A model generated the notes under the pieces. That model was not told where the DNA came from. It did no database searches and saw only the letters and a list, made by a program, of their open reading frames with translations. From contig NZ_JAIMIB010000007.1 of assembly GCF_019966515.1 (NCBI RefSeq), forward strand, positions 124,001 through 188,000: a stretch of 64,000 nt of DNA, given 5' to 3'. Each line of letters starts with the position of its first letter. Position 1 is the stretch's first letter. The position numbers were made by a program, and so were the translations under genes. Source of the stretch: Roseovarius aestuarii. GTDB taxonomy: Bacteria > Pseudomonadota > Alphaproteobacteria > Rhodobacterales > Rhodobacteraceae. This document shows positions 29,081 through 41,862 of this stretch, piece by piece.

Positions 29081-29638
29081 CTATTTGCCCAATTTCGACA
29101 GCTTGTCCTGAAGATCCGAAAGCTGTTTTTTGATCTCGTCGAGATTGTCGTCGTCGCCATCCTCGTCTTCCGAGGTCTCCTGCGCCGTCGTCCCCATGCT
29201 GCTCAGGCCACCGGCCATTGCTTTCATGAACGCCTCCTGCTGCGCACGCATTGCCTCCAGCCCCGGCATCCCTGTCAGAGGATTGGCCTTGGTCATGTTT
29301 TCCATCATCTTCGACTGGCTTTCGCGCAGCATTTCGAAACTGTTCTGAAGAAATTCCGGCACCATGCTGGTCGCATGGCTGGCGTAGCTACGCACAAGGT
29401 CGTTCAGCACATTGATCGGAAGCACGTTTTCGCCACGGCTTTCGTGCTCGGCGATGATTTGCAGCAGATACTGCCGTGTCAGATCATCACCGGATTTCAG
29501 GTCGATAATCTGCACCTCACGCCCGTCGCGGATAAACTCGGCAATATCTTCCAGCGTAACGTAATCCGAGGTTTCGGTATTATAGAGCCGCCGGCTTGCG
29601 TAACGCTTGATCAGCAACGGTTTCTTGGTGTCAGCCAC
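29081..29638 (-). CDS. phaR: Polyhydroxyalkanoate synthesis repressor PhaR
   Basis: A 185-residue protein. Start is GTG at 29638, with GGAGGA seven bases before it. Residues about 5-65 form the PHB/PHA accumulation regulator DNA-binding domain (LIKRYASRRLYNTETSDYVTLEDIAEFI), followed by the second conserved part (LTRQYLLQIIAEHES) and a coiled, acidic C-terminus. PhaR binds DNA when PHB is absent and leaves it for the growing granule, thereby releasing phaP. TGC-rich repeats upstream (29665-29693) suggest autoregulation. Confidence 0.95.
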   Translation of the reverse strand: MADTKKPLLIKRYASRRLYNTETSDYVTLEDIAEFIRDGREVQIIDLKSGDDLTRQYLLQIIAEHESRGENVLPINVLNDLVRSYASHATSMVPEFLQNSFEMLRESQSKMMENMTKANPLTGMPGLEAMRAQQEAFMKAMAGGLSSMGTTAQETSEDEDGDDDNLDEIKKQLSDLQDKLSKLGK

Positions 29639-29664
29639 GGTGCGTTCCTCCCCGAAAATGCAGC

Positions 29665-29693
29665 GCTGCAGCAAAGCTTATGCTACTGCAGCA
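29665..29693. promoter_or_regulatory. TGC-rich repeats upstream of phaR
   Basis: GCTGCAGC (29665-29672) and TGCTACTGCAGCA (29681-29693) lie just before phaR. They resemble, but do not exactly match, the CTGC-N3-GCAG elements at phaP and phaC/phaZ, so they may be a weaker PhaR autoregulatory site. Confidence 0.4.
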
Positions 29694-29728
29694 CAAAAAG
29701 AAAGAGCGAGCCGAAATGGCTCGCTCTT
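29690..29728 (-). terminator. phaP: Rho-independent terminator of phaP
   Basis: On the minus strand an 11-bp perfect stem (arms AAGAGCGAGCC and GGCTCGCTCTT, loop ATTTC) is followed by TCTTTTTG. It lies 45 bases after the phaP stop and ahead of phaR. Confidence 0.9.
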
Positions 29729-29773
29729 CGCTTGAGCACCCGACAGGGAGGTATCGGGTGCGTAAAGCGGGTC

Positions 29774-30220
29774 TTACTTAACGGCCGAAGCTTTTTTAGC
29801 AGCAGCTGTCACGTCGTCGGTTGCTTTTTTGACGACTTTGGCTGTGTCTTCCTGGATGTCTTTGCCAGCCGCCATCAGCAGCTCAACAGTTTCCATTTGG
29901 ACTTTCTTGGCAACTTCAGCGAAGGCGGCCATGTTCTCGGCGGCAACTTCGGCACTGGCCGAGGCGAAATCGGTTACGGCTTTTGCATAGTCAGCCGGCT
30001 CGGTTTTCGCTTTGGTCATGTCGTTCAGTTTGGCCAGAGTTTCTTTGGTCCATTTGTTCGAGATTTCAGCCGATTGCTCAGCAGCTGTCAGAGCAACGCC
30101 CGACAGTTTTTCGCTCAGAGCGGCCTGGTTCTTGAACGCGTCTTCCATCGCTTTGGTGTCGACGGGGAATGCGCCCATGATGTCTTTCATGACGGTGTTG
30201 ATGTCTTGTGCTTTTGCCAT
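29774..30220 (-). CDS. phaP: Phasin (PHB granule surface protein)
   Basis: A 148-residue, alanine- and lysine-rich helical protein of the phasin family (FPVDTKAMEDAFKNQAALSEKLSGVALTA; AFAEVAKKVQMETVELL), with no cysteine or signal peptide. AAGGA precedes the ATG. It coats PHB granules. It has its own strong promoter with a PhaR-type operator and its own terminator, consistent with high, separately controlled expression between phaC and phaR. Confidence 0.93.
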   Translation of the reverse strand: MAKAQDINTVMKDIMGAFPVDTKAMEDAFKNQAALSEKLSGVALTAAEQSAEISNKWTKETLAKLNDMTKAKTEPADYAKAVTDFASASAEVAAENMAAFAEVAKKVQMETVELLMAAGKDIQEDTAKVVKKATDDVTAAAKKASAVK

Positions 30221-30274
30221 TGTACTAATCCTTGGTGTTCATCGCGGGTCCACCGCGGTTCTGCGTATGCCAAG

Positions 30275-30303
30275 AATATGCATGCTGCATCGCAGCATTT
30301 CAA
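30275..30303 (-). promoter_or_regulatory. phaP: phaP promoter with operator inside the spacer
   Basis: Minus strand: -35 TTGAAA (30303-30298), a 17-base spacer, -10 CATATT (30280-30275). Almost the whole spacer is the inverted repeat ATGCTGC-N3-GCAGCAT (30282-30298), so a bound repressor would directly block RNA polymerase. Confidence 0.75.
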
Positions 30304-30313
30304 GTATTTTTTT

Positions 30314-30324
30314 CTGCACTGCAG
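30314..30324. promoter_or_regulatory. Second PhaR-type site upstream of phaP
   Basis: CTGC-ACT-GCAG, the same CTGC-N3-GCAG layout as the site in the promoter spacer. The centres are 29 bases apart, close to three helical turns, which would allow cooperative binding. Confidence 0.6.
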
Positions 30325-30356
30325 CAAAATAATTCTAAAAGCCTCTAAGACCTTGA

Positions 30357-32162
30357 TTATAAATCGTTTGATTTGCGCCTTACATAAGTGCCAGGAGCGG
30401 GACTCAGGGGTTTATGCTTCGAATCACCCGGTTCCCTCGCTTCAATTTTCTTGCCTGACCGCTTGCGCAGCCACGTTTCCCAGCGCGGCCACCACGAGCC
30501 TTCATGGTAATCCGCGCCGTCCATCCAGTCGTCGGGTCTCAGTCCCAGATCGTCATTTGTGTAGTGGCCATATTTCTTCTTGGATGGTGGGTTCACGATC
30601 CCCGCGATATGGCCCGATTCCGATACAATAAAAGTCCGGTCCTTGGCACCAGTCATCTGGAACCCGCGATAGCAGTCTTTCCACGGCGCGATATGATCGG
30701 TCTGGCAGGTGATCGACATCAGTGGCACTTTCACATCGTTGATCGTCAGCTTTTCACCCAACAATTCGATGCCTCCCGCGATAAACTCGTTGCGCTGGCA
30801 CAAACCGCGCAGATAATCGACGGACATTTTCGCTGGCAGGTTCGACCCGTCGCCGTTCCAGTAGAGCAGATCGAACGCCGGGGGTGTTTCGCCCATCATG
30901 TAGCTTTTGATGGCGGGCGTGTAGATCAGATCATTCGACCGCAGGAATGACATCGTTCGCCCCAGAATAAACGAACGCAGCACGCCCTGCTCGTTCACTT
31001 CTTCCTCGATCCCGTCAATGAAATCGTCCTGAAGGAACGGTAGGAATTCGCCCTGCTCTGAAAAATCAGTCAGCGCGGTAAAGAAGGTTGCAGACTTGAT
31101 GCTATTGTCCTTGCGCTTGGCCAGCAAGGCGAGGGTCAGATGCAAGGTCGTTCCCGCGATGCAATAGCCAACGGCGTTGACCTGCTTCTGGCCGGTGATT
31201 GCCTTCGCTTCCCGAATCGCGGTCAGAAAACCCTCTTCAATGTAATCTTCCATGCCAATGTCAGCGAAGGACTTATCCGGATTCACCCAGGATACGACAA
31301 AAAGCGTATACCCCTGATCAACGATCCATTTGATCAGGCTGTTTTGCTCTTTCAGGTCCAGAATGTAGAACTTGTTGATCCAGGGTGGGAAGATCACCAA
31401 CGGCACTTCGTGAACCTGCTCAGTCGATGGTGCATACTGGATCAGTTCCATCATGCGGTTGCGGAATACTACCTCGCCCGGTGTTGTCGCGACATTGCCG
31501 CCCAACTCGAAAGCGCTTTCGTCCGCCAGCCGCACGACCATCTCGCCGTTATTGGCCTCAAGATCAGCGACCAGATTCTCCAACCCTTTGACAAGCGATT
31601 CGCCTTCGGTTTCAACCGCCTTCTCCAGCGCATCGGGATTGGTGCCCAGAAAATTCGTCGGCGACATCATGTCGATGATCTGGCGCGAGAAATAAGCCAG
31701 GCGTCGCTGCTCCTTGGCGTCAAGGTCATCCACGCCATCCACGGCCTGTTCGATCGCCTGGGCGTTTAGCTGATACTGGTCTTTGATGTATTTGAAGTAC
31801 GGGTTTGTGTCCCATAAAGGATTCGCAAAACGCTTGTCTTTTGGCCCGGTTTTTTCTGCAACCGCGTCCTCTGTGGTGCCGCTTTGCAGCAATAATTGCT
31901 GGGCATCGATGTAGTGCCGAACCGACTTGCCCCAATATTCAAGCTGGTTCTCAAACAGTTTCCCGGGGTTTTCAAGCATCTCGGTCCAATAGGAAGTGGC
32001 TGCTTTCGCAAACAAATCCGGTGAGGGCCCGCCAAGTGAGGGGTTGGCCGGATTACGTTGCGAAAATGCTTCTACCAGCCTTTTTGAAAGCCCCTCGACG
32101 CGCGCAAGGTTTTCGTTCAACTTCTCGATATTCACGGCTTCGGTATCCTCTTGCGTTGCCAT
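30357..32162 (-). CDS. phaC: Class I poly(R)-hydroxyalkanoate synthase
   Basis: A 601-residue PHB synthase. The lipase-like box GYCIAG carries the nucleophile C334; the aspartate (CQTDHIAPW) and histidine (SESGHIAGIVNPP) complete the triad. The class I N-terminal domain (TSYWTEMLENPGKLFENQLEYWG) and PPWINKFYILDL, NPDKSFADIGMEDYI are typical. It polymerises 3-hydroxybutyryl-CoA at the granule surface. It is divergent from phaZ, with a shared operator in the gap; phaA and phaB are not in this window. Confidence 0.97.
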   Translation of the reverse strand: MATQEDTEAVNIEKLNENLARVEGLSKRLVEAFSQRNPANPSLGGPSPDLFAKAATSYWTEMLENPGKLFENQLEYWGKSVRHYIDAQQLLLQSGTTEDAVAEKTGPKDKRFANPLWDTNPYFKYIKDQYQLNAQAIEQAVDGVDDLDAKEQRRLAYFSRQIIDMMSPTNFLGTNPDALEKAVETEGESLVKGLENLVADLEANNGEMVVRLADESAFELGGNVATTPGEVVFRNRMMELIQYAPSTEQVHEVPLVIFPPWINKFYILDLKEQNSLIKWIVDQGYTLFVVSWVNPDKSFADIGMEDYIEEGFLTAIREAKAITGQKQVNAVGYCIAGTTLHLTLALLAKRKDNSIKSATFFTALTDFSEQGEFLPFLQDDFIDGIEEEVNEQGVLRSFILGRTMSFLRSNDLIYTPAIKSYMMGETPPAFDLLYWNGDGSNLPAKMSVDYLRGLCQRNEFIAGGIELLGEKLTINDVKVPLMSITCQTDHIAPWKDCYRGFQMTGAKDRTFIVSESGHIAGIVNPPSKKKYGHYTNDDLGLRPDDWMDGADYHEGSWWPRWETWLRKRSGKKIEAREPGDSKHKPLSPAPGTYVRRKSNDL

Positions 32163-32186
32163 ATTGAAGAAATCCTTCTAGAGTTT

Positions 32187-32203
32187 CTGCTATGCAGCAT
32201 AGC
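32187..32203. promoter_or_regulatory. PhaR-type operator between phaC and phaZ
   Basis: CTGC-TAT-GCAG (32187-32197) matches the phaP sites, and overlaps a longer palindrome GCTATGC-A-GCATAGC (32189-32203). It is 25 bases from the phaC start and 64-70 from phaZ, so one protein could control both genes. Confidence 0.65.
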
Positions 32204-32266
32204 GTTGCGCTGCGGGAGGGCAGTGCGACGAATGTAACCGGGCGATCCGCCCCGAGGAGATATAAC

Positions 32267-33583
32267 ATGCGCTACATGGCCACGTATGACTGGATGGAAA
32301 CCCTCCGTAACACCAATCAGTGGTTGGGCGCCACCGCCCTTTCGCTCTCATCATATCCGGTTTTCAGCCTTGCGCCAAATCCTGCCTTCCAATGGATGGC
32401 TGCGTGGGGCGAAGTGACCGAACGCACGTTCCAACGCATGGTGACGAAACCCGACTGGGGTATTGAAAGTATCACAGGCGAGGATGGCCGCGATCACCTG
32501 ATCAACATCGAAACCGTGATCAGCCGTCCATTTGGGGATCTGATCCATTTCGACGTCTCAGGCCGCGAGGAAATGGCCCGCCGGGTTCTGCTGGTGGCGC
32601 CGATGTCGGGCCACTACGCCACACTTCTGCGTTCGACCGTGCGGTCACTTCTGCCCGATTGCGAGGTCTACGTGACCGACTGGCACAATGCCCGCGATAT
32701 CCCCGTGTCGGCCGGTAAGTTCGATATCGAGGATTATACGCTCTACCTCGTCGATTTCATGCGCGAACTGGGCTCCGACCTGCACGTCATCGCGGTTTGC
32801 CAACCGGTTCCGCTGACGTTGGCGGCTACGGCCTATCTTGCCGAGCAGGATCCCGACGCTCAACCGCGGTCGCTGACCCTGATCGGCGGACCGATTGATC
32901 CCGATGCCACGCCAACGGACGTCACCGACTTTGGGCGGCGCGTCACCATGGGTCAGCTTGAGGAAACCATGATCCAACGTGTGGGGTTCAAATATCCCGG
33001 CGTGGGTCGCATGGTCTACCCCGGCCTGTTGCAGCTTGCCTCGTTCATGTCGATGAACAACGAACGCCATATGAAGGCCTTTATGGATCAGATTTCCCGC
33101 GTCGCGCAGGGCAAGGCCAGCGATCGCGACCCGCATAACAAGTTCTACGACGAATATCTTGCAGTGATGGACATGCCGGCGGAGTTTTATCTTTCGACCG
33201 TCGAACGTATCTTCAAGGGCCTTGAAATCGCACGGAACGAGTTTGTGGTGGATGGTCATAGGATTGATTTCGGTAAAATCACCAACGTTGCGGTCAAAAC
33301 CGTCGAAGGCGGCAAAGACGATATCAGCGCACCGGGTCAGTGTATTGCAGCGCTGAATCTCTGTACCGGACTGCCTGACAGCAAGAAGGCAAGTTATGTC
33401 GAACCCGACGCGGGTCACTACGGCATCTTCGCGGGCCGCAGCTGGCGTAACAATATTCGCCCGCTGGTATTGGACTTCATCGATACCAACAGCGATGCGC
33501 CGGAGCCGCGTAAACGGACCTCACCGCGCAAAAAGCCAAAAGGCAAAGTCGATCAGCCGGCGAACAAGAACGCCGCAGCCTGA
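32267..33583 (+). CDS. phaZ: Intracellular poly(3-hydroxybutyrate) depolymerase
   Basis: A 438-residue PhaZ1-type depolymerase. ATG at 32267 follows GAGGAG. It begins MRYMATYDWMETLRNT, carries the conserved PMSGHYATLLRSTVRSLLPDCEVYVTDW region, and has cysteine 178 in AVCQPV as the nucleophile, with histidine in the C-terminal EPDAGHYGIFAGRSW. It has no signal peptide, so it degrades native granules in the cytoplasm. The last 30 residues are lysine-rich, as in other granule-associated members. Confidence 0.96.
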   Translation: MRYMATYDWMETLRNTNQWLGATALSLSSYPVFSLAPNPAFQWMAAWGEVTERTFQRMVTKPDWGIESITGEDGRDHLINIETVISRPFGDLIHFDVSGREEMARRVLLVAPMSGHYATLLRSTVRSLLPDCEVYVTDWHNARDIPVSAGKFDIEDYTLYLVDFMRELGSDLHVIAVCQPVPLTLAATAYLAEQDPDAQPRSLTLIGGPIDPDATPTDVTDFGRRVTMGQLEETMIQRVGFKYPGVGRMVYPGLLQLASFMSMNNERHMKAFMDQISRVAQGKASDRDPHNKFYDEYLAVMDMPAEFYLSTVERIFKGLEIARNEFVVDGHRIDFGKITNVAVKTVEGGKDDISAPGQCIAALNLCTGLPDSKKASYVEPDAGHYGIFAGRSWRNNIRPLVLDFIDTNSDAPEPRKRTSPRKKPKGKVDQPANKNAAA

Positions 33584-36753: not shown

Positions 36754-38700
36754 ATGGCCCAGATTTCCCTTACCTTTCCCGATGGCAATGCACGTTCTTA
36801 TGACGCCGGCATCACCCCTGCCGCCATTGCCGCCGATATCTCAACTTCGCTGGCGAAAAAGGCGATTTCCGCGACCGTGGATGGTCAACACTGGGACCTG
36901 CAATGGCCCATCGAAAGGGATGCGGAAATCAGCATCCATACGATGAAGGACGAAGTACAGGCGAATGAGCTGATCCGCCACGATCTGGCCCATGTCATGG
37001 CGCGTGCGGTGCAGGAAATTTGGCCCGATGTAAAAGTCACAATCGGACCGGTCATTGAAAACGGCTGGTACTATGACTTCGACCGCGCCGAGCCCTTCAC
37101 GCCCGAAGATCTGGGGCTGATCGAGAAGAAGATGAAAGAGATCATCAATCTTCGCGACGAGGTCAGAACCGAGATCTGGGAGCGCGCCCGCGCGATCAAG
37201 CACTACGAGGATGCAGGCGAGCCCTTTAAGGTCGAACTGATTGAAGCGATCCCCGGAGATGAACCGCTTCGCATGTATTGGCATGGGCATTGGCAAGACC
37301 TGTGCCGCGGTCCGCATCTGCAACATACCGGGCAGCTGCCCGCCGACGCCTTCAAACTGATGAGCGTCGCCGGCGCCTATTGGCGCGGCGATTCCAAACG
37401 ACCGATGTTGCAGCGCATCTATGGTGTCGCGTTCACCGGCAAGGAAAAGCTCAAAGCCTATCTGACTTTCCTCGAAGAGGCGGAAAAGCGCGATCACCGC
37501 CGCTTGGGTCGTGAGATGCAACTGTTCCATTTTCAGGAAGAAGCCCCCGGCATGGTGTTCTGGCACCCCAATGGCTGGACGATCTACCGCGCGCTCGAAG
37601 ATTACATGCGTCGCAAGCTGACCAAGGCCGGATACCAGGAGATCAAGACCCCGCAAGTGGTTGACCGCAAACTCTGGGAAGCCTCGGGCCACTGGGATAA
37701 ATACCGTGAAAACATGTACATCACGGAGATCGACGAAGAGCACGCCAACGAAAAACGCACCAATGCGCTCAAGCCGATGAACTGCCCTTGCCACGTTCAG
37801 ATTTTCAATCAGGGCCTGAAATCCTATCGCGATCTGCCCCTGCGTCTGGCGGAATTTGGTTCGTGCCACCGATACGAAGCGCATGGTGCGCTGCACGGGC
37901 TGATGCGGGTACGCGGGTTCACGCAGGATGACGCGCATATCTTCTGCACCGAAGATCAGATCGAAGAAGAGACCTCGAAATTCATCGACCTTCTGTCGGA
38001 TATCTACCGCGATGCGGGGTTCTCAAGCTTCGACATCAAGCTGAGCACGCGCCCCGAGGTGCGGGTCGGATCGGACGAAGTGTGGGACAAGGCGGAAGAA
38101 GCGCTGGAAAAAGCAATCCTGAGCGTGCGCAACGATTACGAGGTCGATCCCGGCGAAGGCGCCTTCTACGGTCCGAAACTGGATTTCAAACTGACCGATG
38201 CCATCGGGCGTGAATGGCAATGCGGCACCTTCCAGGCGGATTTCAACCTGCCCGACCGGCTGGACGCGTCCTACATCGGTGCGGATGGCGAAAAACACCG
38301 CCCCGTTATGTTGCACCGTGCGATCCTCGGCAGTTTTGAACGCTTCCTCGGCATCATGCTCGAAAACTATTCCGGCAAACTACCCTTCTGGCTGGCCCCG
38401 CACCAGGTAGTCGTCGCCTCCATCGTCACAGAGGCAAACGACTATGCGCAGAAAGTGGTTGATACGTTAACCGCTGCGGGCATCCGAGCCGAGGCCGACC
38501 TGCGCAATGAGAAGATCAACTACAAAGTGCGCGAACATTCGGTTGGCAAAGTGCCGGTCATTCTGGCCTGCGGCATGAAGGAAATTGAGAACGATACTGT
38601 CTCGGTTCGACGCCTGGGACAGAAACAAACCAGCGTTGAGCCGCTTGATACTGTTACAATTGAACTGGCCCGCGAGGCGACGCCCCCCGACTTGCTGTAA
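36754..38700 (+). CDS. thrS: Threonyl-tRNA synthetase
   Basis: A 648-residue class II synthetase of normal length: TGS domain (1-62, [15 protein letters not shown]), editing/SAD domain ([32 protein letters not shown]), catalytic core with motif 2 [31 protein letters not shown], zinc ligand in MNCPCHV and motif 3 [17 protein letters not shown], then the anticodon-binding domain (from about 545). Start at 36754 has GAGGAG about 11 bases upstream. A structured leader precedes it. Confidence 0.97.
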
Positions 38701-38714
38701 CAAACACCCGTTTC

Positions 38715-38755
38715 CTCGGCCGGAAGCTGTAACATTACACAAGCTTTCGGCCGAG
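38715..38755 (+). terminator. Terminator hairpin of thrS
   Basis: A 14-bp stem, CTCGGCCGGAAGCT with AGCTTTCGGCCGAG (one G-T pair), with a 13-base loop, followed by a T-rich tail (TTTCTCTATTTTCC). It separates thrS from the bufferin operon. Confidence 0.75.
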
Positions 38756-38881
38756 AGCTTTCTCTATTTTCCTTTATAATCATAAAGTTGCGCAACCCTA
38801 TCGGCTTCACGCGTCCTGACACGCCCGTGTCTAACGATGTCGTGAGTGGTTTTCTGCCCACCTCCGCAATTATGTTCTACC

Positions 38882-38925
38882 TATCGCCGCCACGGCGATA
38901 AGATGAACCCGTCGCCAAACGCGAC
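38882..38925 (+). promoter_or_regulatory. Two hairpins in the bufferin operon leader
   Basis: TATCGCCG-CCA-CGGCGATA (38882-38900), then GTCGC-CAAAC-GCGAC (38911-38925). Both lie within 75 bases of the bufA start. They could be RNA structures or a protein-binding palindrome; no clear sigma-70 promoter was found next to them. Confidence 0.4.
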
Positions 38926-38954
38926 GTGATGTAACTGATTAGGGAGCTTCCCGA

Positions 38955-39257
38955 ATGTCGAAGATGATGAAAACCGTAGCCATTGCTGGCGCAGTCACCG
39001 CAGCTATCGCAGCTCAGGCCACTAGCGTAAGCGCAGCTGGAAAAGAAAAGTGCTATGGCGTTGCTCTGGCAGGCGAAAACGGCTGCAAAGCCGGTGCAGG
39101 CACCACCTGTGCAGGCACCTCGACCGTCGATTACCAAGGCAATGCCTGGACGCTTGTTGACGCGGGTACCTGTGCCGAGATTGAACTGCCTGCAACGGCA
39201 GACGGCACTCCACGTCAAGGTTCGCTGGAAGAGCTGAGCCGCGACCTGCCGTCCTAA
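38955..39257 (+). CDS. bufA1: Bufferin-family metallophore precursor (BufA1, DUF2282)
   Basis: A 100-residue precursor. A Sec signal peptide ([24 protein letters not shown]) with cleavage near residue 27 leads to a mature part with exactly four cysteines: EKCYG, NGCKAG, TTCAG, GTCAE. This is the pattern of DUF2282 bufferins, in which the two central cysteines become thiooxazole rings and the peptide binds copper in the periplasm. AGGGAG precedes the ATG. It heads an operon with the modifying enzyme; a strong hairpin follows the gene, which would leave precursor mRNA in excess. Copper binding is known for the family and inferred here. Confidence 0.93.
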
Positions 39258-39265
39258 CCAAACCC

Positions 39266-39296
39266 GGGATGCGCATAGGATGAACATGCGCATCCC
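39266..39296 (+). terminator. Intercistronic hairpin between bufA1 and bufB1
   Basis: Perfect 11-bp stem, GGGATGCGCAT with ATGCGCATCCC, nine-base loop. The following bases are CCCTTCC rather than a T tract, so it is more likely an mRNA 3' stabiliser or partial terminator than a full stop. It begins nine bases after the bufA1 stop. Confidence 0.7.
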
Positions 39297-39331
39297 CCCT
39301 TCCGCTTCCGACCTGACTGAAAGCAATCGTC

Positions 39332-40189
39332 ATGCTGGATAACTCACCGAAATTCCCTGCCCTTCCTGCTGCGCCGGGAGTGGGATACAAACCGCAGCAT
39401 TTTAGCGATATCCTGAATGATGCCGCACCGGTGGAATGGTTGGAGATCCATGCCGAAAACTATATGGGTGATGGCGGTCGCCCGATTGCGCAGCTTCGCC
39501 ATCTGTCAGAGCAGTTTGCAATTTCCGTGCACGGCGTCGGCCTTAGCATTGGTGGTGAAACGGAGCTTGATGCGGATCATCTCGCCCGTCTCAAGCATAT
39601 CTGCAACTGGCTGCAACCAGAGAGTTTTTCGGAACATCTGGCGTGGTCCACCCATGACAGCCACTTCCTGAATGATCTGCTACCCCTGCCCTATACCAAG
39701 GCCACCCTCTCCCGTGTTGCCGATCACATTGATCAGGTGCAAGAGGTCGTTGGCCGCCAGATGCTGCTGGAAAACCCCTCAAGCTATCTGGCCTTTGACG
39801 AAAGTACCTATGCCGAGACCGAGTTCCTCGACGAGGTAGCCAAACGCACCGGCTGTGGCCTGTTGCTGGATGTGAACAACGTCTTTGTCTCGGCCACGAA
39901 CCTACAGATCGACCCTTACGCCTATATCGATGCCTTTCCGCTGGCCCGCGTCGGCGAGATACATCTGGGCGGACATGATGAGGAAACCGATGACCACGGA
40001 GCGCCACTGCTGATCGACAGTCATGGACGCGAAGTCGCCGATCCGGTCTGGACCTTGCTGGACTACACGCTGGAAAGATCCGGTGTTCGCCCCATCCTGA
40101 TCGAGTGGGATGCAAATATCCCCGAATGGGCTGAACTGGCGGCAGAAGCCGAACGCGCGGCCAATGCACTTCAGAAAGTGCCAGCATGA
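39332..40189 (+). CDS. bufB1: MNIO-family bufferin-modifying enzyme (BufB, DUF692)
   Basis: A 285-residue TIM-barrel enzyme of the DUF692 family, now called multinuclear non-heme iron-dependent oxidative (MNIO) enzymes. Conserved ligand motifs are visible: WLEIHAENYM, SVHGVGLSIGG, SEHLAWS, LLENPSSY, LLLDVNNVFVS, EIHLGGHDEE, IDSHGREV, LIEWDANIP. The enzyme converts cysteines of the BufA precursor into thiooxazole heterocycles in the cytoplasm before export. It overlaps the next gene by four bases. Confidence 0.94.
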   Translation: MLDNSPKFPALPAAPGVGYKPQHFSDILNDAAPVEWLEIHAENYMGDGGRPIAQLRHLSEQFAISVHGVGLSIGGETELDADHLARLKHICNWLQPESFSEHLAWSTHDSHFLNDLLPLPYTKATLSRVADHIDQVQEVVGRQMLLENPSSYLAFDESTYAETEFLDEVAKRTGCGLLLDVNNVFVSATNLQIDPYAYIDAFPLARVGEIHLGGHDEETDDHGAPLLIDSHGREVADPVWTLLDYTLERSGVRPILIEWDANIPEWAELAAEAERAANALQKVPA

Positions 40190-40944
40190 ATGTTTCACAA
40201 ACAACGTTCCACACGGCTTTGCTGGACCCTTCGCAAGCCGTACCCGGCGGGTTGAGCGACGGGTTGGGCCAGCCTGCGGGCAGCCGGTTTTCAGTTTATC
40301 GCAATAATGTCGCCGTTAGCCTGACGGAGGCGCTGGAGTTGAGCTTCCCAGCCATCGCAAAGTTACTGGGCGAGCAGAATTTCAAGGGGCTGTCGGGTAT
40401 CTTCCTGCGCCAGCATCCACCCGAAACGCCGATCATGATGCAATATGGTGCGGCCTTCCCCGATTTTCTGGCCGGAATCGAGCAGCTCTCCCATATCGGC
40501 TATCTGCCCGACGTTGCCCGGCTGGAACAAGCTGTGCGGGTCTCGTATCACTCTGCAGATGCGACCCCAATCGACCCTGAAGACCTCCAGGCTTTGGCGC
40601 CGGACGCGCTTGCATCGGCTCGGTTCGACCTTGCGCCATCCGTGCGGCTTGTCCGCTCTTCCTGGCCGATCCATCAGATATGGGCCTATAATCTTGAAGA
40701 CGGCGCGCCCAAGCCAACCGGTGGTGCGCAGGACGTACTTATCCATCGGCCGGAATTCGACCCCGAAGTGATCCCTATCTCACCGGGAACGGCAGATTTT
40801 ATCGCCGCGATGATGCGGGGAGAAATGCTGGCGGATGCCAACGAGAGCGCGCAGGCCGCACATGACACCTTCGATCTGTCGCAAGCCCTTGGCCTTCTGC
40901 TGTCAGCCCAGGCCATCACACACATAACTACTGGAGATGATTGA
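40186..40944 (+). CDS. bufC1: MNIO partner protein (BufC, DUF2063)
   Basis: A 252-residue protein with the DUF2063 N-terminal domain (FHTALLDPSQAVPGGLSD ... FSVYRNNVAVSLTEALELSFPAIAKLLGEQNFKGLSGIFLRQHPPETP), older descriptions of which call it a putative DNA-binding domain. In bufferin and related MNIO systems this partner binds the precursor and hands it to the enzyme. The C-terminal half (about 110-250) is beta-rich. Overlaps at both ends (ATGA with bufB1; one base with the DoxX gene) show tight coupling. Confidence 0.92.
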   Translation: MNVSQTTFHTALLDPSQAVPGGLSDGLGQPAGSRFSVYRNNVAVSLTEALELSFPAIAKLLGEQNFKGLSGIFLRQHPPETPIMMQYGAAFPDFLAGIEQLSHIGYLPDVARLEQAVRVSYHSADATPIDPEDLQALAPDALASARFDLAPSVRLVRSSWPIHQIWAYNLEDGAPKPTGGAQDVLIHRPEFDPEVIPISPGTADFIAAMMRGEMLADANESAQAAHDTFDLSQALGLLLSAQAITHITTGDD

Positions 40945-41510
40945 TGTACGCGCTGATTTCCTTGCATGATGCCGTGTTCGGTCGACTTGAACGCGCAAGC
41001 TGGTTGTTACCGACACTCGCGCGCTTTCTCTTTGCCGCGCTCTTCCTGTTCTATTTCTGGGTCTCCGGCGCCACCAAACTGGGCGATGGCTTTCTTGGCC
41101 TCTTCAGCCCATCCTTCAACGCATATGCCCAGATTTTCCCTAAGGCGATGGAAGCGGCGAACTATGATGCAGCGGAACTGTCAATCTTTCACACGCTGGT
41201 TGTTCTGGCCGGTACCTATGCCGAATTCCTGCTGCCGCTGTTGATCGTTATCGGGTTATTCAGCCGTCTGGCTGCGCTTGGTATGATCGGATTTATCGCA
41301 GTGCAGACTCTGACAGACCTCTACGGCCACGGTGTGATCAATGAGGCGGCGTCGGTCGGAGCATGGTTCGACAAGATGCCGGACGCGATCATCATGGATC
41401 AGCGGGCGCTGTGGATTTTCCTGCTGTTGGTGATCGTTTTCAAAGGGGCAGGCCCGATTTCAGTGGACCGCGTGCTCGCCAACAACGCCGAGCCTAAAAA
41501 TGAGCTTTAG
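40944..41510 (+). CDS. DoxX-family membrane protein of the bufferin operon
   Basis: A 188-residue protein with four membrane segments (about 20-45, 77-100, 105-125, 150-168) and the DoxX pattern (LPTLARFLFAALFLFYFWVSGATKLGD; GTYAEFLLPLLIVIGLFSRLAALGMIGFIAVQ). ATG at 40944 with CTGGAGA upstream is preferred to TTG at 40941. DoxX proteins regularly accompany bufABC; a redox or quinone-linked role is suspected but not shown. Its 3' end overlaps the convergent gene by 17 bases. Confidence 0.9.
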   Translation: MYALISLHDAVFGRLERASWLLPTLARFLFAALFLFYFWVSGATKLGDGFLGLFSPSFNAYAQIFPKAMEAANYDAAELSIFHTLVVLAGTYAEFLLPLLIVIGLFSRLAALGMIGFIAVQTLTDLYGHGVINEAASVGAWFDKMPDAIIMDQRALWIFLLLVIVFKGAGPISVDRVLANNAEPKNEL

Positions 41511-41862
41511 GCTCATCCGGTTTTCCGGCTGCAACGGCCAGCAGTCCGCCCAGCAGGGTAAACCCGATGGGGAACATGGTGAAGACACTGAAACCGAAGG
41601 CATAATACATCAGCCCGGCTGAGATCAGCATCAACATTCCCCCCCATAAAGCACGTGCACTGGCCATGGCACCACCAGCGATGGCCAGCACGGGGGACAG
41701 GAAGCTGGCAATGCGGATCAAATCCACGTTGTCCACCTGATGGGCAAGGCCATCGATCTCGCCGAACCGCTCGATCGCCTCGGTATATCCATAGCCGAAA
41801 AAACCGACGAACATGGCAAAAACACCGCCAATGATACCCAGAACAAGTGCCGCATTACGCAT
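41494..41862 (-). CDS. Four-helix membrane protein of unknown function
   Basis: A 122-residue hydrophobic protein with four membrane segments (about 4-24, 49-68, 70-88, 91-112) and glycine-rich helices (LGIIGGVFAMFVGFFGYG). It resembles DUF4064-like or small cotranslocated membrane proteins, without a firm match by eye. GGAGGG precedes the ATG. Its stop lies inside the 3' end of the DoxX gene on the other strand. Confidence 0.8.
   Translation of the reverse strand: MRNAALVLGIIGGVFAMFVGFFGYGYTEAIERFGEIDGLAHQVDNVDLIRIASFLSPVLAIAGGAMASARALWGGMLMLISAGLMYYAFGFSVFTMFPIGFTLLGGLLAVAAGKPDEPKAHF

Follow-up and report, generated by a model that had tools for sequence, protein, structure and literature searches.

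Known Bufferin Operons and the Locus of Roseovarius aestuarii

Bufferins form a large and recently described family of peptides made by enzymes of the MNIO type. The core bufferin cluster consists of genes for the precursor, the MNIO enzyme, the DUF2063 protein and DoxX, with bufABC as the gene order, and Buf1 precursors have four conserved cysteines, the central two of which are modified and the outer two joined in a disulphide (Antoine et al. 2025, PMC12452194). Buf1 of Caulobacter is reported to chelate copper and to aid growth in copper excess (PMC12452194). In Caulobacter, sigmaF transcribes the operon from the promoter GTAACC-N16-CGAA, and NrsF keeps this sigma factor in check (PMC3511200); sensitivity to copper is seen in a sigF mutant (PMC8224329). 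The present analysis concerns a bufABC-doxX operon, an operator upstream of it and a hairpin inside it, in a stretch of 64,000 nucleotides (nt) of Roseovarius aestuarii (family Rhodobacteraceae; assembly GCF_019966515.1, contig NZ_JAIMIB010000007.1, positions 124,001 to 188,000 of the forward strand). This whole stretch is called the window, and positions are counted within it.

The Caulobacter bufferin-1 operon CC3254-CC3257 matches the R. aestuarii operon in its four families and in their order (PMC3511200, PMC8224329). Unlike Caulobacter, which has sigF, nrsF and the sigmaF promoter, R. aestuarii yielded no NrsF, and upstream of its bufA there is a tandem-palindrome operator and, within 300 nt, no such promoter. 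In the literature searched, the sigmaF type is the only bufferin control described, and no recognisable description of the operator or of the hairpin was found; the available text of PMC12452194 does not contain the words promoter, hairpin or Roseo. Within this literature both elements are undescribed. As a set of genes the operon is ordinary and well understood; its new and directly testable part is the control element and the hairpin. Judged from sequence, the locus as a whole is very probably a bufferin-1 operon served by an unlinked dimeric regulator instead of sigmaF and NrsF, with a hairpin favouring bufA.

The Tandem-Palindrome Operator

The operator spans 31 base pairs (bp) and is composed of two adjacent 14-bp palindromes of a TSACG-N4-CGTSA-like outline with a period of 15 bp. 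The motif was derived by expectation-maximisation, seeded with the window, from 80 upstream regions of at most 400 nt; one of the 81 loci, L057, was dropped at a contig end. Scores from 11 to 38 were obtained in 78 of these 80 regions, the other two scoring -12 (L028) and -1.4 (L063), and 800 mononucleotide shuffles peaked at 1.3. The mean information among 39 non-redundant loci was 0.96 bits per column in the operator versus 0.17 and 0.18 in its flanks. The shuffles are the fairer control, because the alignment used for the information content was built on the motif itself. A -10-like box of the TA...T type lies 17 or 18 nt past the motif frame in 69 of the 78 operator-bearing loci, as opposed to 16 of 78 after shuffling.

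In the R. aestuarii genome, the operator is the sole site at one mismatch or fewer and one of two sites at two mismatches or fewer. The second site (C2:96004-96034) is regarded as doubtful: no bufA is found nearby, and the palindrome stands inside a reading frame (L221).

In the window copy, both palindromes are positioned upstream of the -35 to -10 interval, and no consensus-like -35 is visible by eye. Such an arrangement would suit a dimeric regulator encoded elsewhere and bound at roughly -44 and -59, as reckoned from the -10 box, beside a promoter of the sigma70 type. To judge from this position, the regulator would most likely be an activator responding to metal or envelope stress. A metal-released repressor, for example a pair of ArsR-, MarR-, TetR- or XRE-type dimers, is a possible but clearly less probable occupant. 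A repressor could also make use of two close palindromes set 15 bp apart and almost touching the -35 region, and the wider flanks of some loci contain MarR-type and ArsR-type genes (see below). The palindromes are, however, upstream of the -35 to -10 interval and not over it, an argument from position only.

It is likewise doubtful that the operator belongs to a global regulator which binds many single palindromes and has in bufA merely its strongest target. The genome contains 26 single TSACG-N4-CGTSA palindromes versus 11 of the reversed pattern. Three of the 15 that were fetched appear to be intergenic, but the other 12 are inside reading frames, and the tandem form is found once per genome at one mismatch. 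One single palindrome, TCACGTTTCCGTGA at G000:C1:158539-158552 (L218 1501-1514; L232), precedes by about 80 nt a gene whose product is an exported EF-hand protein rich in histidine and methionine. This gene may be a second target of the regulator that reads the operator.

The preliminary description of the window had reported no ECF sigma factor (extracytoplasmic function), anti-sigma factor or copper regulator next to the operon and had left its control open. The first statement agrees with the present searches. NrsF was not found at E 0.001 in the genome, which is 99.72% complete (the genome-wide search covered NrsF and not the ECF sigma factors), and among reading frames of at least 90 amino acids (aa) no regulator gene recurs in most flanks of the 80 related loci. 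The question of control has been narrowed by the conserved operator, although the regulator binding it was not found. In the flank scan, the frames were clustered across the 80 loci, and 20 representatives of clusters present in at least five loci were compared with Pfam; 12 of the 20 gave no match and are possibly spurious frames.

A MarR-type gene was encountered in 17 of the 80 flanks, including those of two Roseovarius loci. It lies about 7 kb downstream of bufA (L007, L011, L023 and 14 others), close to where the fetched stretch ends, and this count may therefore be too low. An ArsR-AHSA1 gene is present in 13 of the 80. Neither gene occurs in the window; both neighbours are a lead to the operator-binding regulator. 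As a further lead only, the 14-bp outline TGACR-N4-YGTSA resembles, in size and in some letters, the CusR box (TGACAANNTTGTCA). The operator can also be used as bait for the missing sensor.

Distribution of the Operator and of NrsF

Within the genus, the operator was found in 26 of 60 genomes (R. aestuarii included), with one site in each, against 1 for the control. Among 35 relatives from the genus, it is present in 18 of the 19 that bear an MNIO gene and in none of the 16 that lack one. In the MNIO-bearing exception, G011, the identity of BufB (L086) is only 60%. In the family, the operator was detected in 109 of 295 genomes, again with one site each, the control occurring in three genomes; in G164, G238 and G323 the same near-palindromic site is read on both strands. 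DUF2282 genes are found in 106 of the 109 (the exceptions being G184, G195 and G254). The site is at most 450 nt from DUF2282 in 73 of the 77 sites that could be placed, the DUF2282 position not being listed for the remaining 32, and bufA is close to the operator in 27 of 30 family sites fetched. Operator-like matches with no bufA nearby (L141, L157 and L159 and, by position, G316, G331, G343 and G148) were tentatively taken as chance. In the class, the operator was present in 5 of 385 genomes, three of which were among the five family members drawn, and the control in 8 of 385. Outside the family, the operator was thus seen in 2 of 380 genomes (G412, and G694 with three repeats), which is under the control level.

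NrsF exceeded its cut-off in 40 of the 295 family genomes. The 211 family genomes with DUF2282 are divided into 103 with the operator only, 30 with NrsF only, 3 with both and 75 with neither. This near-exclusion has a Fisher p of 9e-8, uncorrected for relatedness. In two of the three genomes that have both (G316 and G331), the operator site is away from DUF2282. No locus with a BufB of at most 64% identity shows an operator score, and at 67% and above the operator is mostly present.

The promoters point in the same direction. When the exact SigF-type pattern GTAAC-N15..17-CGAA was sought in the 300 nt upstream of bufA, distinct upstream regions being counted, it turned up in 4 of the 126 regions that have an operator and in 16 of the 39 that have none, and it is not present in that interval of the window. 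Bufferin operons on plasmids of Paracoccus, Gemmobacter, Shinella, Nitrobacter and Rhizobium have the same DUF2282-DUF692-DUF2063-DoxX order as the window. Seven of 355 matching plasmid records were examined. In all five annotated operons, a sigma-70-family factor and a DUF1109 (NrsF-type) gene lie within a few genes, and none of the five has an operator score; of the two unannotated records, that of Tritonibacter has the operator and that of Pseudorhodobacter does not.

From the joint distribution of operator, NrsF and SigF promoter, it is read here that sigmaF control has been replaced within the Rhodobacteraceae. Several observations weigh against this reading. As many as 75 of the 211 DUF2282 genomes have neither the operator at one mismatch nor NrsF over its cut-off; a weaker operator is present in several of them, part of the 75 having been checked. 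Eight loci with BufB 68-77% identical (L028, L063, L139, L190, L196, L202, L204 and L212) have no operator score before bufA, three of them (L202, L204 and L212) coming from NrsF-bearing genomes. Finally, the promoter contrast becomes weaker when one substitution is allowed (45 of 134 operator-bearing versus 29 of 42 operator-less regions). If the replacement holds, the near-exclusive distribution of operator and NrsF would be a clear case of a stress operon that has swapped its switch and kept its genes.

The Hairpin between bufA and bufB

The spacer between bufA and bufB varies from 42 to 195 nt in length and can form a hairpin of at least 8 bp in all 81 loci, the stem having a median length of 11 bp and beginning at a median of 15 nt past the stop codon. 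In 78 of 81 loci, this hairpin is better than all 20 dinucleotide shuffles. The pairing is kept while the sequence changes, as 67 distinct left arms occur among the 81 loci. A stem of the same minimum length is present in 23 of 27 operator-less loci, for which no shuffles were run, and in the other four the spacers as cut are only 24 to 38 nt long. The hairpin therefore seems to be older than the operator.

We infer from the sequences that the hairpin favours bufA over bufBC. It would let many transcripts end, or survive, as bufA-only messenger RNA and so provide substrate in excess of enzyme. An intercistronic stem-loop that follows an abundant product and sets unequal amounts along an operon is familiar from the puf operon of Rhodobacter. 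Two results are less favourable: whole-spacer folding gave z < -2 in only 60 of the 81 loci, and at least five T within the 8 nt after the hairpin were found in only 14 of 81, the window having two. The scarcity of T-runs argues against an efficient intrinsic terminator, and for this reason partial termination or protection of the bufA-only message is favoured over plain termination.

A simple terminator combined with a separate promoter for bufBC-doxX is improbable. Locus L139 (1410-1600) would fit it, as bufA is followed there by a terminator-like hairpin with a T tail and bufB is preceded by a copy of the operator, yet this locus is alone in having a site between these genes among 27 fetched family loci with operator and bufA (other promoter types were not sought), and the T-runs are mostly missing elsewhere. 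Only a weak operator-like sequence (score 6.5) precedes bufA in L139, whose operon looks split into two units.

Genes and Proteins of the Operon

The four genes run in one direction from 38955 to 41510 (Table 1), and the coordinates and reading frames of the preliminary description were verified. The overlap of stop and start that it had noted for bufB and bufC is ATGA; the bufC stop also overlaps an ATG of doxX, as TGATG. For doxX, the ATG at 40944 is preferred to the TTG at 40941, one codon earlier, that was chosen by the open reading frame caller.

Table 1. Features of the R. aestuarii bufferin locus (window coordinates).
Feature	Position	Strand	Description
Likely thrS terminator	38715..38755	+	inverted repeat and T-rich tail 3' of thrS; authors' reading of the sequence
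Tandem-palindrome operator	38817..38847	+	palindrome 1, 38817-38830 (TGACACGCCCGTGT); palindrome 2, 38832-38845 (TAACGATGTCGTGA); motif model from 80 upstream regions
Sigma70-like -10 box TATGTT	38871..38876	+	25 nt beyond palindrome 2
bufA	38955..39257	+	bufferin-1 precursor, DUF2282, 100 aa, four cysteines; Sec-type signal peptide in the authors' reading
bufA-bufB intergenic hairpin	39266..39296	+	perfect 11-bp stem, 9-nt loop, 8 nt past the bufA stop
bufB	39332..40189	+	MNIO-family bufferin maturase, 285 aa
bufC	40186..40944	+	DUF2063 partner protein, 252 aa; model folds like TglI and NGO1945
doxX	40944..41510	+	DoxX-family membrane protein, 188 aa

Profile searches bore out the families proposed earlier for all four products. 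BufA matched Pfam DUF2282 (5.1e-23; 81.3 bits, cut-off 22.4), and its cysteines are the four that had been counted, at positions 33, 44, 52 and 73. The 285-residue BufB matched MbnB_TglH_ChrH (PF05114, the former DUF692) at 7.1e-106, BufC matched DUF2063 at 2.3e-23, and the doxX product matched DoxX at 6.9e-6 (27.1 bits, cut-off 23.6). Among the NCBIfam models, BufB is above the cut-off of NF050167, 'MNIO family bufferin maturase' (376.3 bits, cut-off 310), and below that of HvfB (246.8 versus 360); BufA matched none of these models. A point on the other side is that BufC and DoxX are far under the cut-offs of the NCBIfam HvfC and HvfX models. A single gene each for DUF2282, MNIO and DUF2063 was found in the genome, all three in this operon. 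The earlier assignment to the BufA-BufB-BufC-DoxX arrangement coincides with the core cluster of PMC12452194 and stands: the four-cysteine DUF2282 precursor, the type of maturase, the DUF2063 partner and the gene order are those of a bufferin-1 cluster. The operon is, to judge by these matches, a standard bufferin-1 cluster, a further member of a well-described kind. HvfABC/oxazolin and other captophorins share with it the MNIO enzyme, the DUF2063 partner and thiooxazole chemistry (PMC13419390, PMC13097082). The precursor here is, however, a DUF2282 protein and not one with EGKCG repeats, and BufB is under the HvfB cut-off.

Four cysteines are present in 80 of 81 BufA sequences, the remaining one (L057) being cut by the contig end. 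In the alignment of 80 rows, from which this truncated sequence is omitted, K32, C33, G35, N42, C44, C52, G62, N63 and C73 are invariant. The N-terminus has a basic start and a hydrophobic stretch, read by eye, and A27 is invariant in the 80 rows. The same rows show a conserved C-terminal tail, R-x-GSL-x-x-L-x-RDLP, outside the Pfam domain (window 39180-39257). In further loci, some of which repeat one another, its strict form occurs in 48 of 60 with BufB at least 67% identical versus 8 of 36 below 67%. The tail is commoner among Roseobacter-type precursors; in L194 and L206 it is extended, with the GSL motif altered and RDLP kept.

In BufB, E38, H40, H67, H102, E147, N182, N183, E209, H211, D229, H231 and E258 are invariant in all 18 aligned sequences, which were picked out of 52 extracted. 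Via 3BWW, residues D229, H231 and N182 or N183 align with HvfB D242, H244 and N175, the replacement of which abolished activity (PMC13419390). The full-length BufC model has a pLDDT (predicted local distance difference test) of 95. Its best solved matches are TglI (8hci, 1.5e-6; 8hi7, 3.2e-6) and NGO1945 (3dee, 1.3e-4), and the match to MbnC is weaker (7dz9_C, E 0.32). NGO1945 has been described as DUF2063 plus RRE (PMC12452194). An RRE domain in BufC would rest on this likeness, because the free-standing RRE TbiB1 (5v1v) gave only a weak match (E 1.7). Neither BufA nor BufC found a useful hit among PDB sequences.

By analogy with the described systems, we infer thiooxazole formation and copper protection in R. 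aestuarii. An unmodified peptide, or one devoted to another metal or to envelope stress so that copper is not the signal, is unlikely: the sigmaF regulon of Caulobacter also answers chromium and cadmium (PMC3511200) and some bufferins are fused to MerC (PMC12452194), but the core set here is complete, the maturase model is passed, and both Buf1 and the sigF mutant of Caulobacter are linked to copper as described above. Copper induction is nevertheless not to be taken for granted, because a related Microbulbifer thiooxazole cluster, which is not a bufferin, was undetected in proteomes even with added copper (PMC12538549).

Proposed Mechanism

BufA would be synthesised with a Sec signal peptide, and the complex of BufB, an MNIO iron enzyme, with its partner BufC would oxidise C44 and C52 to thiooxazoles before export. 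C33 and C73 would join in a disulphide. The exported peptide may then buffer periplasmic copper, with DoxX as a helper. In the Roseobacter group, the sigmaF/NrsF control of other Alphaproteobacteria would have been replaced. The fuller version, in which the operon of this group lost the sigmaF/NrsF switch, an unlinked regulator with one target reads a copper or envelope signal, and the older hairpin sets the ratio of peptide to enzyme, is only slightly favoured. The single-copy operator and the conserved hairpin offer two short targets for mutation in marine bacteria that can be cultured.

Related Loci and Gene Neighbourhood

The related loci are the best 80 of 575 relatives from a scan of bacterial genomes. 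By their titles, they belong to Rhodobacteraceae of the Roseobacter type or to unplaced alphaproteobacterial assemblies, and the nearest named ones are Roseovarius, with BufB 93% and 91% identical. The genes bufA, bufB and bufC are found in 80 of 80 loci and doxX in 79, the exception (L005) being at a contig edge; bufABC and doxX co-occur far beyond chance. Within the fetched stretch, and limited by some short contigs, the constant neighbours are thrS (77 of 80), an ArsC-family gene (73), a cold-shock gene (69) and a small membrane gene (65). The thrS terminator is likely to set the bufferin operon apart from thrS. A search of 38600-41600 for known RNA families gave none above the gathering score (the best being mir-30 with 22.7 of 50.2 bits).

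On the Rhizobium rhododendri plasmid (L181 4338-4933), tandem DUF2282 precursors precede one MNIO gene, after which come a gene of the azurin family and two genes for cytochrome c. Elsewhere in the window, at 29081-33583, the translations inspected by eye resemble a polyhydroxyalkanoate repressor, synthase and depolymerase.

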